Source: an uncultured Cohaesibacter sp.
Lineage (GTDB): Bacteria; Pseudomonadota; Alphaproteobacteria; Rhizobiales; Cohaesibacteraceae
Reading direction: 5' to 3'
DNA length: 64,000 bases
NCBI RefSeq assembly: GCF_963664735.1
Contig: NZ_OY761553.1
Coordinates: 1,255,303-1,319,302 of the forward strand
The translations under genes were made by a program, and so were the position numbers. The notes below the pieces were generated by a model. The model saw only the letters and a program-made list of their open reading frames with translations, did not search any database and was not told the origin of the DNA. The stretch's first letter is position 1; every line of letters begins with the position of its first letter. This document shows positions 48,603 through 54,111 of this stretch, in pieces.

Positions 48603-49559
48603 TCACCTTAATGCATCAAGTGCTTCTAAAACCAATGCGGACGTTGCCTCAGGCTTTACTGATTCCACGGTCAGAATCTGACGCCAGCGTTTTGCGCCCG
48701 GGCGGCTTTGAAACAGGCCAATCATGTGGCGTGTTACCTGACTGACCCGCCCACCTCTGGCAACATGCTCATCAATATAGGGCATCATTCCTTCTGCTGC
48801 CGCAAACGGGTCGATAGCCTCACCAACCCCGAACAGGTCACTATCAACACGGGCCAATAAAGCCGGATTCTGATAAGCTGCCCTGCCAAGCATGACACCG
48901 TCCACATGGTCCAAATGATCAGCGCATTCATCAAGCGTTTTGATGCCGCCATTAATCGCAATGTGAACATCTGGCAATCGCTGTTTCAATCGATAGACCC
49001 GATCATAGTTGAGCGGCGGAATATCTCTGTTTTCCTTTGGGCTCAATCCCTGCAGCCAAGCCTTTCTCGCATGAACGGTCAGCCCGTCACAGCCTGCGGC
49101 CAGCACCTTGTCGACCAGCGTGTCCAGCGCCTCTTCTTCATTCTGCTCGTCAATGCCAATGCGACATTTCACGGTAACCGGAAGGTCCGTTGCTTTCTTC
49201 ATTGCGTCAACACAGCGCGCAACGAGATCCGGTTCCGCCATCAAACAGGCACCGAACATACCAGACTGCACCCGATCTGAAGGACAGCCAACATTGAGAT
49301 TAATCTCGTCATAGCCATAATCGGCACATATGCGCGTTGCTTCGGCCAGTTGGTTTGGATCAGATCCTCCGAGCTGGAGTGCAACCGGATGTTCGCTGTC
49401 GTTGAAGCCAAGCAAATGATCCCTGTCTCCATGAATAACAGCGGGTGCCGTTACCATTTCCGTATATAACAACGCCGTCTTTGAAAGCTGCCTATGAAAG
49501 AAACGACAGTGTCGGTCAGTCCATTCCATCATGGGTGCAACAGAAAACACCTTAGCCAT
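48603..49559 (-). CDS. dusA: tRNA-dihydrouridine synthase A
   Basis: A 318-residue flavoenzyme that reduces uridine 20/20a in tRNA. Conserved features are VAPMMEWTDRHCRFFHRQL, the GGSDPNQLAEATRI stretch and GYDEINLNVGCPSDRVQSG with the catalytic Cys. The start MAKVFSVAP at 49559 matches the family. The frame continues to another ATG at 49619 that adds 20 residues without a family match; this extension could be due to integration of the adjacent island at the 5' end of the gene, and it may or may not be translated. Confidence 0.94.
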   Translation of the reverse strand: MAKVFSVAPMMEWTDRHCRFFHRQLSKTALLYTEMVTAPAVIHGDRDHLLGFNDSEHPVALQLGGSDPNQLAEATRICADYGYDEINLNVGCPSDRVQSGMFGACLMAEPDLVARCVDAMKKATDLPVTVKCRIGIDEQNEEEALDTLVDKVLAAGCDGLTVHARKAWLQGLSPKENRDIPPLNYDRVYRLKQRLPDVHIAINGGIKTLDECADHLDHVDGVMLGRAAYQNPALLARVDSDLFGVGEAIDPFAAAEGMMPYIDEHVARGGRVSQVTRHMIGLFQSRPGAKRWRQILTVESVKPEATSALVLEALDALR

Positions 49560-49657
49560 TGATTTATATTGTTCTTTTATATTTTCCAATGACTTAAGTT
49601 CCTTTTCAAGTCGTACCATTCGCAGCCAGTCTGGCCCAATATTATCTAATTTTGCCC

Positions 49658-50099: not shown

Positions 50100-51875
50100 C
50101 TAGAATAACGGATGGTCTTTCATGTAGGCAAAAGCTCTGGCGGGTACAAGGTACTCAACCTCTTTCCACTTATCCTCTTTTATCAGCTTTCTGACCTTGG
50201 AAGCACTTATGGGATTTCCATCGCTGGCGGTTTTTCTTGGAATAATCGTAAGTTCGATCCCATAGTGTGGCATGGTAGCAGCCATATGCTCGTTATATTG
50301 CCGGGTGACACTGCATGTCGGCTCTTCGCCAAGAAAAATCTTGGTTACGTTTAAGCAGGGAGCGATATATTCGCCGAAATAGAAAGACTCCAGACTGAAA
50401 TCGACATTCTCCGATCTCTCGTCGTCCTTCACGAAATATTCCGGGGCAATATATTCCGAACAAATGAATTTCCCCCCCTTTAGAACGGAGATATTGCCGT
50501 AATCGGAACAAACTTCACTGACCATATTGAAGCGATCAACAAATTTTACTGCGCTCTTATCTTCTTCAATAACAAGCACATAAAGATGGTCCACATGACT
50601 AGCCGCATACTCGATCAGTGACAAATGACCTTTGGTGATGGGATTGCAGTTCACCGCCACACTGCCAAAAACAAAGCCTTCCCGAGGCGGCTTCGGCGCA
50701 TATTTATTGTCTTTCAAATATTCACAATATTGCTTGAGATTAGAGCCTTCAAATTCCTTTGCCTCAATCGCACAAAGTATTTGACGATGGACCTCCAACA
50801 AGTGATTGGCAAAGCATAAGAGTTTGTCGTCAATTTGCGAATTTGAGCAAGTGGGCTCGTCAAATGACAGCTTAAGGCGACTCGCCACTTCTTGTGCTCC
50901 CGAGGGCAGAAGATGGGAGCTATCGAAAAAGTGTTCGGGGTCCAGGATAATCTCGCAGTCGGCAACAGAAGTTTCGGTAAACGGAAGTGCAAAAAAGACA
51001 GTATCACCACGAAGAAAATTACAAGTCAGCAAGCGCGACAAAACATCAATAAGATTGACACCCCCCATACCATGATTGAAGACCCTGACTTTTCGGTTAT
51101 TCACCAAGGATGAAAAACAGCTGGGAACCGTCTCGGTATCTTTGAGCCAAGCGCCAAAAACTTCCGAAGCACCAAAGAAATGACATGTGCGGGACCAATC
51201 TTTGGACATATTGGGAACGGTTTTGCGCACCCCATCATTGATATTGGCATATTGAGATTTGTGATCCCGATTGATTAGGCGACCCCTGAAAACGAATTTT
51301 CCCGGCAAGTTCGTTACATATTTTGGGGTATTTCTTTTCCGTTTAATGCCATTTCGGCTATCGGTTACTTCTTGGCGAATCCTGTCTTTGTGATAGCCCG
51401 CATTTTTGCAAACCGTCTTGTAAGTAATCAAATTGACACCGATCGCTTCAAGGCGATGTCGTAAAACGCGAATCCAATCCTCAAGATCAATAGTATTCTG
51501 TATTCCCGCCCCCAAACAGCGAAGGCTATCATATGTTTTGAGGTTTTCCGGGATTGTATTAAAATCGAGACGAGAAGCGATTGCTTTGGTCACAGCTTCT
51601 GCTTCTTGCCAAGTATAAATATCCTCTAACATATTGGAAAAACCGGGTGCGAACGGCGTTAAGCTTGAATCAGCTCGCCCACATCGGAAATCGGTGTAAG
51701 GGACAGGTCCTTGACCATAAACGAGATCACCGATCATGGCCAATTCGTCTTTTAGGCCATAAAGAAAAACGTGATCATTACTTTTTCTCGCCAACAAAGA
51801 CCGAGTAGAAATCCGTTTTTTTGACGAAATAGACCATGCGTGCTGGCTAATTTTTTTAAGAAATGGGATGTTCAT
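50100..51875 (-). CDS. Orphan fusion of an SGNH-hydrolase-like domain and a CitC (citrate lyase ligase)-type nucleotidyltransferase
   Basis: A 591-residue protein with three parts. Residues 1-225 are not recognised. Residues about 230-340 look SGNH-like: FFGASEVFG (Ser237 in the block I position), FNHGMGGVNLIDVLSRLL, and FFDSSHLLPSGAQEVA with an Asp318-x-x-His321 block V. Residues about 400-591 match the C-terminal domain of [citrate (pro-3S)-lyase] ligase: FGSVAVNCNPITKGHLSLIE with the HxGH-like nucleotide site, FLGEEPTCSVTRQYNEHM and ISASKVRKLI. CitC adenylylates and acetylates the citrate lyase acyl carrier, but no citCDEF genes are seen. It is intact, AT-rich compared with neighbours, and flanked by integrase remnants, so it was probably acquired by transfer. 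The actual substrate is unknown. Confidence 0.7.
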   Translation of the reverse strand: MNIPFLKKISQHAWSISSKKRISTRSLLARKSNDHVFLYGLKDELAMIGDLVYGQGPVPYTDFRCGRADSSLTPFAPGFSNMLEDIYTWQEAEAVTKAIASRLDFNTIPENLKTYDSLRCLGAGIQNTIDLEDWIRVLRHRLEAIGVNLITYKTVCKNAGYHKDRIRQEVTDSRNGIKRKRNTPKYVTNLPGKFVFRGRLINRDHKSQYANINDGVRKTVPNMSKDWSRTCHFFGASEVFGAWLKDTETVPSCFSSLVNNRKVRVFNHGMGGVNLIDVLSRLLTCNFLRGDTVFFALPFTETSVADCEIILDPEHFFDSSHLLPSGAQEVASRLKLSFDEPTCSNSQIDDKLLCFANHLLEVHRQILCAIEAKEFEGSNLKQYCEYLKDNKYAPKPPREGFVFGSVAVNCNPITKGHLSLIEYAASHVDHLYVLVIEEDKSAVKFVDRFNMVSEVCSDYGNISVLKGGKFICSEYIAPEYFVKDDERSENVDFSLESFYFGEYIAPCLNVTKIFLGEEPTCSVTRQYNEHMAATMPHYGIELTIIPRKTASDGNPISASKVRKLIKEDKWKEVEYLVPARAFAYMKDHPLF

Positions 51876-52070: not shown

Positions 52071-52401
52071 ATTTGGTCGACCACCGTCGCCACCGTTGTC
52101 GTGTTCTCACTCGGTCTTTGTTGCCAGCGCCAGCCAAGCCATGCTCAACGCCTTGCCAAAAGGCGGGTTAATTTGGTTGTTGATGGAGATACCTACTGGC
52201 TCAGGGGCATCAAATACCGCCTCAAAGACGTTGATACTCACGAAATTAACGGGACTTGCTCAGGAGAACCGCGCTTAACTACCAATGCCACCAGAGCCTT
52301 ATCAGGCATTGGAAGCAATGGCGTTCATGTCAGGGTTTGTAAACTACACAGACAAACGCCGCCAAGCCTCGCAGAAGGAACACAAGGCGTTTTGGGTGTG
52401 A
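52071..52401 (+). pseudogene. Remnant of a staphylococcal-nuclease-like (thermonuclease family) gene
   Basis: In the frame of 52101 a hydrophobic signal-like stretch (TTVATVVVFSLGLCC) leads into VNLVVDGDTYWLRGIKYRL and KDVDTHEINGTCSGE, which matches the start of an SNase domain (DGDT and the region up to the first catalytic Arg/Glu). Homology fades after TNATRAL, and the frame ends at 52433 without the second half of the domain. A short frame from an ATG at 52285 to 52401 (38 codons) overlaps it. I read this as a truncated, frameshifted relic. Confidence 0.5.
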
Positions 52402-52469
52402 CTATCGCCACCACGGACACAAAAAATCTTTGAAATAATGGTAATTGCTAAAGCTGCCTAATTTTGGAT

Positions 52470-52641: not shown

Positions 52642-54111
52642 TTAAACATTACTGTTGGCCACTTCAATCAGCCCGTCGACATCCATATGTTGAGCAAAAT
52701 GATCGGCCAGAGCATCGAGTGTCCGATCAACACCGCTTTGATAGCCTTGACCGGAAGCTGTTTGACCAAGTGACGCCAGAAAGGCGGCACGGAACTGATC
52801 ATCGTTGAACAGCCCATGAATATAGCTCCCCATGATATGACCATCTGAGGAAATGGCGCCCTCGTGAATACCATCGATTTTAAAAATCGGTCGGGTGCGA
52901 TCTGGCCCATCGCTACGTCCAACATGGATTTCATAGCCGTTCATTGCAGTCCCGCTTTGAACATGGAAGCCAGAAACCTGAACGGTTCTCTTCTCGCCCG
53001 CCATAACGGTATCGATGTCAAGCAGTCCCAAGCCTTCGCAGACCGCGCCCTTTTGTGTTTCAACGCCTTCGGGATCCATAATGCGCTTGCCCAACATCTG
53101 ATAACCACCGCAAAGACCAAGCACGAAACCGCCACGGCGTACGATGGCCTTGATGTCGATGTTCCAGCCTTCGCTCTTCATGGCTTCCAGATCACCAATC
53201 GTCGATTTCGAACCCGGCAAAATCACAAGATCAGTATCAAGTGGAATTGTCTCGCCGCGCTTTACCATGGTCAGTGCAACGCAGCTTTCGGATTTGAGCG
53301 CATCCAGATCGTCAAAGTTGGCTATGCGTGGCAAAATAGGAACGGCGATTTTGAGGGCCTTGCCTTTATGGATTTGAGGGACATCGCGCCCCAGATCTTC
53401 GCTGTCTTCGGCGGGCAAGCGCACTGCGTCATTGAACCATGGAAGAACACCAAAATCAGGCCAGCCGGTATGTTTGGTTATGATCTCCAGACCGGATGTG
53501 AAGAGGGATGAATCGCCGCGGAACTTATTGATAACATACCCCTTTACCAACGCCTTGTCCGATGGGCTCAACAGATGATGCGTGCCGACTAGAGAGGCGA
53601 TTACACCGCCGCGATCGATATCGCCAATCAGGATGACGGGCAGTTTTGCCGCTTCGGCAAAGCCCATGTTGGCGATGTCCCCATTGCGCAAGTTCACTTC
53701 CGATGCACTGCCCGCCCCTTCAACAACAACAAAATCAGCCTGTTCGCAAAGAATGTTATAGGACTCCATTACCGACGTCAGAAGCGAGTGTTTACTCTGG
53801 CTGTAGTTGCGAGCCTGCATCTGGCCGACCACTTTGCCTTGCACCACTACCTGACTGCCAACATTGGTTTGCGGCTTGAGCAGCACCGGGTTCATGTGAA
53901 CACTTGGCTCCAGCCCGCAAGCCAATGCCTGCAGTGCCTGAGCGCGTCCGATCTCTCCCCCTTCCGGGGTTACTGCGGCATTGTTCGACATATTTTGCGG
54001 CTTGAAGGGAGCCACTTTATATCCCTGCCGCTTGAGATAACGACAAAAGCCAGCGACCAACATGGACTTTCCGACGTTGGAACCTGTTCCCTGAAACATG
54101 ATGGCTGGCAT
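52642..54111 (-). CDS. cobQ: Cobyric acid synthase
   Basis: A 489-residue glutamine-dependent amidase that amidates side chains b, d, e and g of adenosylcobyrinic acid a,c-diamide. The N-terminal P-loop-like GTGSNVGKSMLVAG and the C-terminal GATase domain with nucleophile FVLGLCGGYQMLG are present, with GSYIHGLF near the end. It is the downstream-most gene of the minus-strand cob run in this window and adjoins the decayed island. Confidence 0.96.
   Translation of the reverse strand: MPAIMFQGTGSNVGKSMLVAGFCRYLKRQGYKVAPFKPQNMSNNAAVTPEGGEIGRAQALQALACGLEPSVHMNPVLLKPQTNVGSQVVVQGKVVGQMQARNYSQSKHSLLTSVMESYNILCEQADFVVVEGAGSASEVNLRNGDIANMGFAEAAKLPVILIGDIDRGGVIASLVGTHHLLSPSDKALVKGYVINKFRGDSSLFTSGLEIITKHTGWPDFGVLPWFNDAVRLPAEDSEDLGRDVPQIHKGKALKIAVPILPRIANFDDLDALKSESCVALTMVKRGETIPLDTDLVILPGSKSTIGDLEAMKSEGWNIDIKAIVRRGGFVLGLCGGYQMLGKRIMDPEGVETQKGAVCEGLGLLDIDTVMAGEKRTVQVSGFHVQSGTAMNGYEIHVGRSDGPDRTRPIFKIDGIHEGAISSDGHIMGSYIHGLFNDDQFRAAFLASLGQTASGQGYQSGVDRTLDALADHFAQHMDVDGLIEVANSNV

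Follow-up and report, generated by a model that had tools for sequence, protein, structure and literature searches.

The window, that is, the whole 64,000-nucleotide stretch of DNA from an uncultured Cohaesibacter sp. that was analysed, carries on its minus strand one uninterrupted open reading frame at 50100..51875, with an ATG start and 591 codons without a stop. The encoded protein combines an SGNH-like region with a CitC-type nucleotidyltransferase domain, and homologues exist. Its N-terminal region (aa 1-193; 51297..51875) belongs to no known Pfam family, and the only relative found for it is in a homologue from an uncultured Sulfitobacter (L033). The SGNH-like domain, assigned by profile comparisons (aa 194-339; 50859..51296), contains the predicted nucleophile Ser237 of block I (FFGAS within HFFGASEVFG; codon 51165..51167) together with Asp318 (50922..50924) and His321 (50913..50915) of block V, both within FFDSSHLLPSG. 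The C-terminal domain is a CitC-type nucleotidyltransferase of the HIGH superfamily (PF08218; aa 404-585; 50121..50666), with the TxGH nucleotide-binding motif NPITKGH at aa 411-417 (50625..50645; VNCNPITKGHL near aa 408-418) and the motif ISASKVR at aa 556-562 (50190..50210); all of these features lie on the minus strand. The first-pass annotation had described such a protein, and the reading frame, the PF08218 match and the profiles bear it out, with Ser237, Asp318, His321 and NPITKGH found where it had placed them. The first 225 residues, which it had called unrecognised, match no Pfam family at E up to 5. Among 14 family proteins no 19-residue stretch exceeds a Kyte-Doolittle mean of 1.86, and the window enzyme is probably a soluble, cytosolic protein.

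The gene lies between a dus-like gene (48603..49619, minus strand) and a cobQ-like gene (52642..54111, minus strand), both named by eye; the latter is present in 18/18 genomes of the genus. The spacing between the two is about 3.0 kb in the window as against about 0.2 kb in the relatives G001 and G004, and in a third relative (G007) a gap of about 1.5 kb holds a different gene (L058 1051-1959), which looks sulfotransferase-like by eye. Twelve relatives were fetched for this comparison, and the nine without a dus-like gene in the fetched stretch were left out. Across 41 searched relatives, which include the window's own genome, the full-length protein turned up in that genome alone (1/18 within the genus); of the remaining 17 genus members, 12 match in the CitC-type part only, in frames of 346-424 aa. 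The GC content is 44.1% in the gene and 50.3% across the window. A probable remnant adjoins the gene at 52101..52433 on the plus strand: at most aa 2-78 of this frame can be aligned, to parts of genus ORFs of 132-163 aa, and the remainder is unmatched. Matches to this frame at 0.001 occur in 10/18 genomes, the window's own counted. Pfam yields nothing for it and the PDB nothing credible; it would appear to be a broken gene copy. A by-eye impression that it encodes a nuclease is unsupported by the Pfam and PDB comparisons. The spacing in relatives, the single occurrence, the lower GC and the probable remnant together support a foreign insertion of about 3.0 kb. Where a decayed island of wrecked genes had first been described, the inserted stretch stands, but one probable remnant was recognised in place of many wrecked genes. 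By eye, no clear ribosome-binding site is seen in the 70 bases upstream of the ATG, which, together with the occurrence in a single genus genome and the adjoining remnant, means that the window gene may be decaying.

The nucleotidyltransferase domain is the best-defined part of the protein. PF08218 matches it in Pfam at 176.7 bits (cut-off 20.9; 5e-52), and the generic cytidylyltransferase family barely passes its own Pfam cut-off (21.3 vs 21 bits). TIGR00124, the citrate lyase ligase equivalog, covers the C-terminal part only and reaches 153.3 of the 262.1 bits required (8e-45); five family members score 166.5-194.0 bits, and the remaining NCBIfam matches of the window protein are at 1.5e-7 or weaker. 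Of 49 near-invariant columns derived from 26 CitC sequences, the window protein retains 34, among them those of TxGH, GxEP, YN and SASxVR, and 27 are shared by all 15 fusions. Compared with solved structures, the domain profile finds phosphopantetheine adenylyltransferases nearest (2.1e-9) and weakly touches TmcAL (5y0r; 0.008). The true CitC of the window's genome has an N-terminal GNAT domain (PF00583, at its cut-off); the window protein has no Pfam match, GNAT included, in aa 1-225 or aa 186-400. A tree of 61 domains, from which nine near-identical CitC rows of the genus are excluded, separates true CitC (17 rows, support 100/99), the marine fusions (14 rows, 100/99) and a selenomonad group (29 rows, 98/87), with low support (93/59) for the order in which the three groups join. 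An earlier tree of 42 domains had set the 26 CitC apart from the 15 fusions plus the protein Smac51 (99/97), and the 15 alone did not form one group. By its place in these trees, the window nucleotidyltransferase domain is outside the true CitC clade.

Smac51 (L017 1-2736) is a 911-aa protein encoded on a deltaproteobacterium plasmid, with TPRs and a PF08218 CitC-type domain. It scores 197.7 bits against TIGR00124, and PF05636 matches it at 5.4e-5, below cut-off. It was considered as an independent SGNH fusion and rejected, as an SGNH domain was not detected in it (hhalign 1.1%). Its gene lies near genes annotated for sulfate activation.

The SGNH assignment is less straightforward. Taken alone, the window protein's SGNH region has no Pfam match, even at E 10, and Lipase_GDSL is touched by five of the 14 family members (best 0.036), the window protein not among them. 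When a profile of the 14 SGNH regions is compared with solved structures, the top seven of its 13 hits comprise entries labelled GDSL lipase, esterase or lipase, and CgnD (E 0.0022 to 0.36); the later ones are mixed, and a weak hit to TesA (0.16) is among the hits. Block I and the block V Asp and His of the family profile align with CgnD, which we take to be an SGNH protein, and D318-x-x-H321 of the window protein falls opposite FVDRVH. By hhalign, the profile also matches L014, an SGNH-type protein from a related genome (96.6%, 6e-10), which itself matches Lipase_GDSL_2 and ALGX in Pfam, both weakly and below cut-off. The window protein has the catalytic Ser after a GxS-type turn in block I, the DxxH of block V, and VFNHG as block II. 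The Asn of block II is kept in 64/64 SGNH sequences, its Gly is gone in selenomonads (VENESQ type), and by eye no block III Asn or GxND was seen. The modest E-values, the lack of Pfam support for the window protein and the departures in blocks II and III count against the SGNH call; aa 194-339 are termed SGNH-like by profile only.

Across the family, the predicted catalytic residues were counted in 14 marine-group and 50 distinct selenomonad-group sequences, a few of the 50 being pieces of one gene. Ser, Asp and His are each present in 14/14 marine sequences. In the selenomonad group the nucleophile position is occupied by Cys in 45 sequences, by Ser in three and by a gap in two, and His is kept in 49/50, the remaining one having a gap. 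Asp is kept in 22/50, including all three Ser types. The exchange of Ser for Cys with frequent release of Asp fits a working nucleophile, and an acyl intermediate on Cys would be easier to imagine for transfer than for plain ester hydrolysis.

The first-pass annotation had proposed looking for the same three-part architecture elsewhere. The SGNH and CitC-type pair does recur, rarely, and the N-terminus attached to it varies. It is common to 14 aligned proteins from two phyla and to further selenomonad genes. A scan of the genomes of 84,980 species with a two-sequence alignment query found at least 13 loci, a lower bound because the scan requires exact peptide patterns: Sulfitobacter, Leisingera, Roseovarius, Ruegeria, Thalassospira, five Vibrio/Vibrionales, two Photobacterium and one selenomonad. 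An additional family member lies on a Vibrio replicon. In the Vibrio genus of G696, eight of 196 genomes have a match of more than 700 bits; five of these had come up as hosts among the 13 loci, and ordinary CitC there reaches at most 237.5 bits. In the family of the Roseovarius genome G697 there is one match at 1e-30 among 345 genomes, G697 itself. The selenomonad family is far richer, with matches at 1e-30 in 77/189 genomes and above 300 bits in 48/189 (a table count in which some matches are parts of broken copies); part of the remaining matches are ordinary CitC. In 398 genomes of the phylum, ten frames match PF08218 above 33 bits; nine of them have an ordinary length of 342-416 aa, and the tenth is the window gene (180.1 bits, 591 aa). 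The first 400 aa match in 5/289 class genomes, and a search of phylum genomes gives matches in 6/299, with the window gene the only match over the whole length in each set. A first scan of genome contigs found no relative.

Three N-terminal kinds can be distinguished: TPR-like, the window kind and a selenomonad kind. The TPR-like kind is found in 11 proteins of Vibrio, Photobacterium, Thalassospira and roseobacters; the commonest TPR model is matched by 6/11 at E up to 1, and the best TPR E-value is 1.3e-7. The window kind comprises two sequences only, the window protein and L033, which share 33% identity there and 45% in full-length alignment. Comparison by hhalign gives no kinship between the three kinds (probabilities 0.04-0.27%). 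A phage origin was rejected: 50,697 phage records contain no fusion (three records have a partial CitC-like match), and two scans of viral contigs gave no relative in their pattern matches. A role in anti-phage defence was likewise rejected, since none of four family members tested matches PADLOC up to 0.1.

Many selenomonad copies carry a run of C in the linker between the SGNH and nucleotidyltransferase domains, and several shift frame there. In 35 of the 51 copies examined the two domains share one frame, and the other 16 are broken. After removal of three loci fetched twice, a linker run of at least 7 C is present in 11 of 13 broken and 4 of 35 intact copies (Fisher p = 3.8e-6). One of the broken copies, L111, has 13 C and its break is an in-frame stop; without it, the share of broken copies with 7 C or more is 10/12 (p = 1.0e-5). 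Runs of 7-10 C lie at the linker frame break in L125, L126, L127, L129, L131, L137-L140 and L142, whereas two broken copies, L128 (5 C) and L141 (3 C), have no such long tract. Within the SGNH and nucleotidyltransferase stretches themselves the longest run of C measures 3-5 in 51/51 copies. These counts come from mutually related copies, a subset of those in the selenomonad family of which several were chosen for being broken, and homopolymer errors are possible in the metagenome assemblies behind them. The tract would most naturally suggest phase variation, with assembly error as the other possibility. Selenomonads had first seemed to have separate SGNH and nucleotidyltransferase genes, which would have given an argument from gene fusion; this was abandoned, as the majority of junctions have the look of frame breaks within one gene. 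Tandem SGNH/CitC-type copies occur on one selenomonad contig (L125, about 9.5-17.2 kb; G1340:C35). In the linker of the window gene no comparable poly-C tract was seen.

A new role for the activating domain had first been drawn from an absence of citrate lyase genes. No such gene was seen adjoining the window gene. The genome, however, has a cluster at C1 ~1.609-1.613 Mb, about 305 kb from the window gene, in which citF and the gene of a CitD-like carrier accompany citC, a frame of 346 codons. These three are confirmed by Pfam, and citE, citG and citX are named by eye, so that the search proposed for citD, citE and citF returns candidates for all three. The original premise therefore fails, since the genome carries citrate lyase with its own CitC. 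A role outside citrate lyase still holds because most other hosts lack CitF over cut-off. CitF passes its cut-off in two of 13 genomes searched, the window's and that of Vibrio G699, and is thus absent at that level from 11 of the 12 other hosts (the host of L037 being outside the count); selenomonad G705 has one weak match below cut-off. Ordinary full-length CitC is present among the 12 other hosts in G699 only, and short PF08218 pieces at contig ends of G705 look like extra copies cut by assembly. By eye, no citrate lyase genes lie beside the homologues.

The neighbourhoods of the 13 loci were compared by eye from the first 60 residues of each neighbour, with little or part of the surroundings available for L033 (4 kb) and L043 (14 kb). 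No neighbour gene recurs except among related Vibrio; an operon partner was accordingly rejected, and there is no pointer to an acceptor. A roseobacter copy (L038) lies near genes that by eye resemble those of sialic-acid-type sugar synthesis, and one Thalassospira copy adjoins a sulfotransferase gene (PF17784); the remaining neighbourhoods offered no hint. Upstream of the nearest homologue lies a gene for a PvuRts1I-like restriction endonuclease with an SRA domain (L033 157-1038). An SPFH-domain gene adjoins the family gene in three selenomonad genomes (L129 6447-7745, L132 and L136), with a zinc-ribbon gene on the opposite side in L132 and L136; one gene of each kind was tested for its family and the others were named by eye.

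True CitC makes acetyl-AMP. As the most likely reading, we consider that the window protein may form an acyl-AMP at the expense of ATP and then transfer the acyl group to an acceptor through its SGNH-like domain; we place this slightly short of an even chance. The CitC-type domain would join ATP and a small carboxylate into acyl-AMP, acetate being the default guess taken from true CitC. The SGNH-like domain, standing in place of the GNAT domain of CitC, would take the acyl group on Ser237, or on Cys in most of the selenomonad group. The variable N-terminal region would select the acceptor to which the group is then handed, conceivably a surface-glycan precursor. We infer the formation of acyl-AMP, the covalent intermediate, transfer instead of hydrolysis, and the acceptor. 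The activating half follows from the kinship of the domain to CitC, and the transfer half from the exchange of GNAT for an SGNH-like domain together with the Ser/Cys pattern. The surface-glycan guess draws on analogy with SGNH acetyltransferases, on the sugar genes near L038 and on the Thalassospira sulfotransferase.

Other readings of the same two domains were weighed. The protein could work in the manner of CoaD or NadD, with a phosphorylated polyol or sugar acid as the nucleotide acceptor and the SGNH-like domain removing an ester from the product, so that synthesis and editing are combined. Phosphopantetheine adenylyltransferases are indeed the nearest solved relatives, and many characterised SGNH proteins hydrolyse esters. 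However, the domain is far closer to CitC, as judged by TIGR00124 at 8e-45 against 1.5e-7 or weaker for other families, it retains the GxEP and YN residues of CitC, and the replacement of Ser by Cys, with frequent loss of Asp, would in our judgement be odd in a plain esterase; we regard this reading as unlikely. Alternatively, the protein could charge a carrier protein as CitC charges CitD. In that case the SGNH-like domain, as thioesterase or esterase, would either proof-read the acyl group or set it free. This would use the same two chemistries, and an acyl carrier is the natural product of CitC; the weak hit to TesA also agrees with it. But no carrier gene was noticed by eye adjoining the homologues, and we hold this reading to be improbable. 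About equally doubtful is that the window gene is a recent arrival, useless to its host and heading for decay. Its presence in a single genus genome, the junction that is empty in two relatives and occupied by a different gene in one, the adjoining probable remnant and the lower GC would all fit such a fate, whereas the 591 open codons, the retention of all catalytic residues examined and the 45% identity to L033 argue against it. Finally, service to citrate lyase as a redundant ligase is very improbable: the genome does contain citrate lyase, but with a CitC of its own in that operon; the fusion lies outside the well-supported CitC clade and misses the TIGR00124 cut-off, and 11 of 12 other hosts have no CitF over cut-off.

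Acyl-AMP formation followed by SGNH-type transfer can be compared with known systems. The protein resembles CitC in its C-terminal nucleotidyltransferase domain, with TxGH and SASxVR motifs and most near-invariant columns; it differs in having an SGNH-like domain in place of GNAT, in its position outside the CitC clade and below the TIGR00124 cut-off, and in having no adjoining citrate lyase gene. TmcAL is an acetate-activating tRNA ligase; its family (HIGH_NTase1, PF05636) has a weak profile link to the domain, and the architecture differs. With CoaD (phosphopantetheine adenylyltransferase) the domain has HIGH-superfamily kinship and TxGH in common, and the match is far weaker than to CitC. 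Acetyltransferases of the AlgX, PatB and OatA type likewise have an SGNH domain potentially carrying an acyl group. Their acetyl group is believed to come from acetyl-CoA via a membrane partner (PMC9487903, PMC7448272). The window protein, in contrast, includes an ATP-using domain and lacks a strong hydrophobic segment. Searches of open-access papers, judged by title, turned up no publication on an SGNH-CitC fusion, and neither "nucleotidyl" nor "citrate" occurs in the available part of the main text of a review of the SGNH family (PMC9487903).

Recurring as it does in scattered marine and gut bacteria, the pair is probably used to activate a small acid and transfer it for a purpose other than citrate lyase. 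More tentatively, the family may consist of soluble, CoA-independent acyltransferases in which acyl-AMP made by the CitC-type domain would pass to the SGNH Ser or Cys, a swappable N-terminus would recognise the acceptor, and in Selenomonadaceae the poly-C tract would act as a switch for the coupling of the two domains. Three features lend themselves directly to experiment: the replacement of Ser by Cys, an N-terminus that can be swapped, and a linker that may be phase-variable. If true, CitC chemistry would operate outside citrate metabolism, and SGNH-type acyl transfer would have an ATP-driven route, as opposed to the supply from acetyl-CoA via membrane partners that the available literature describes.
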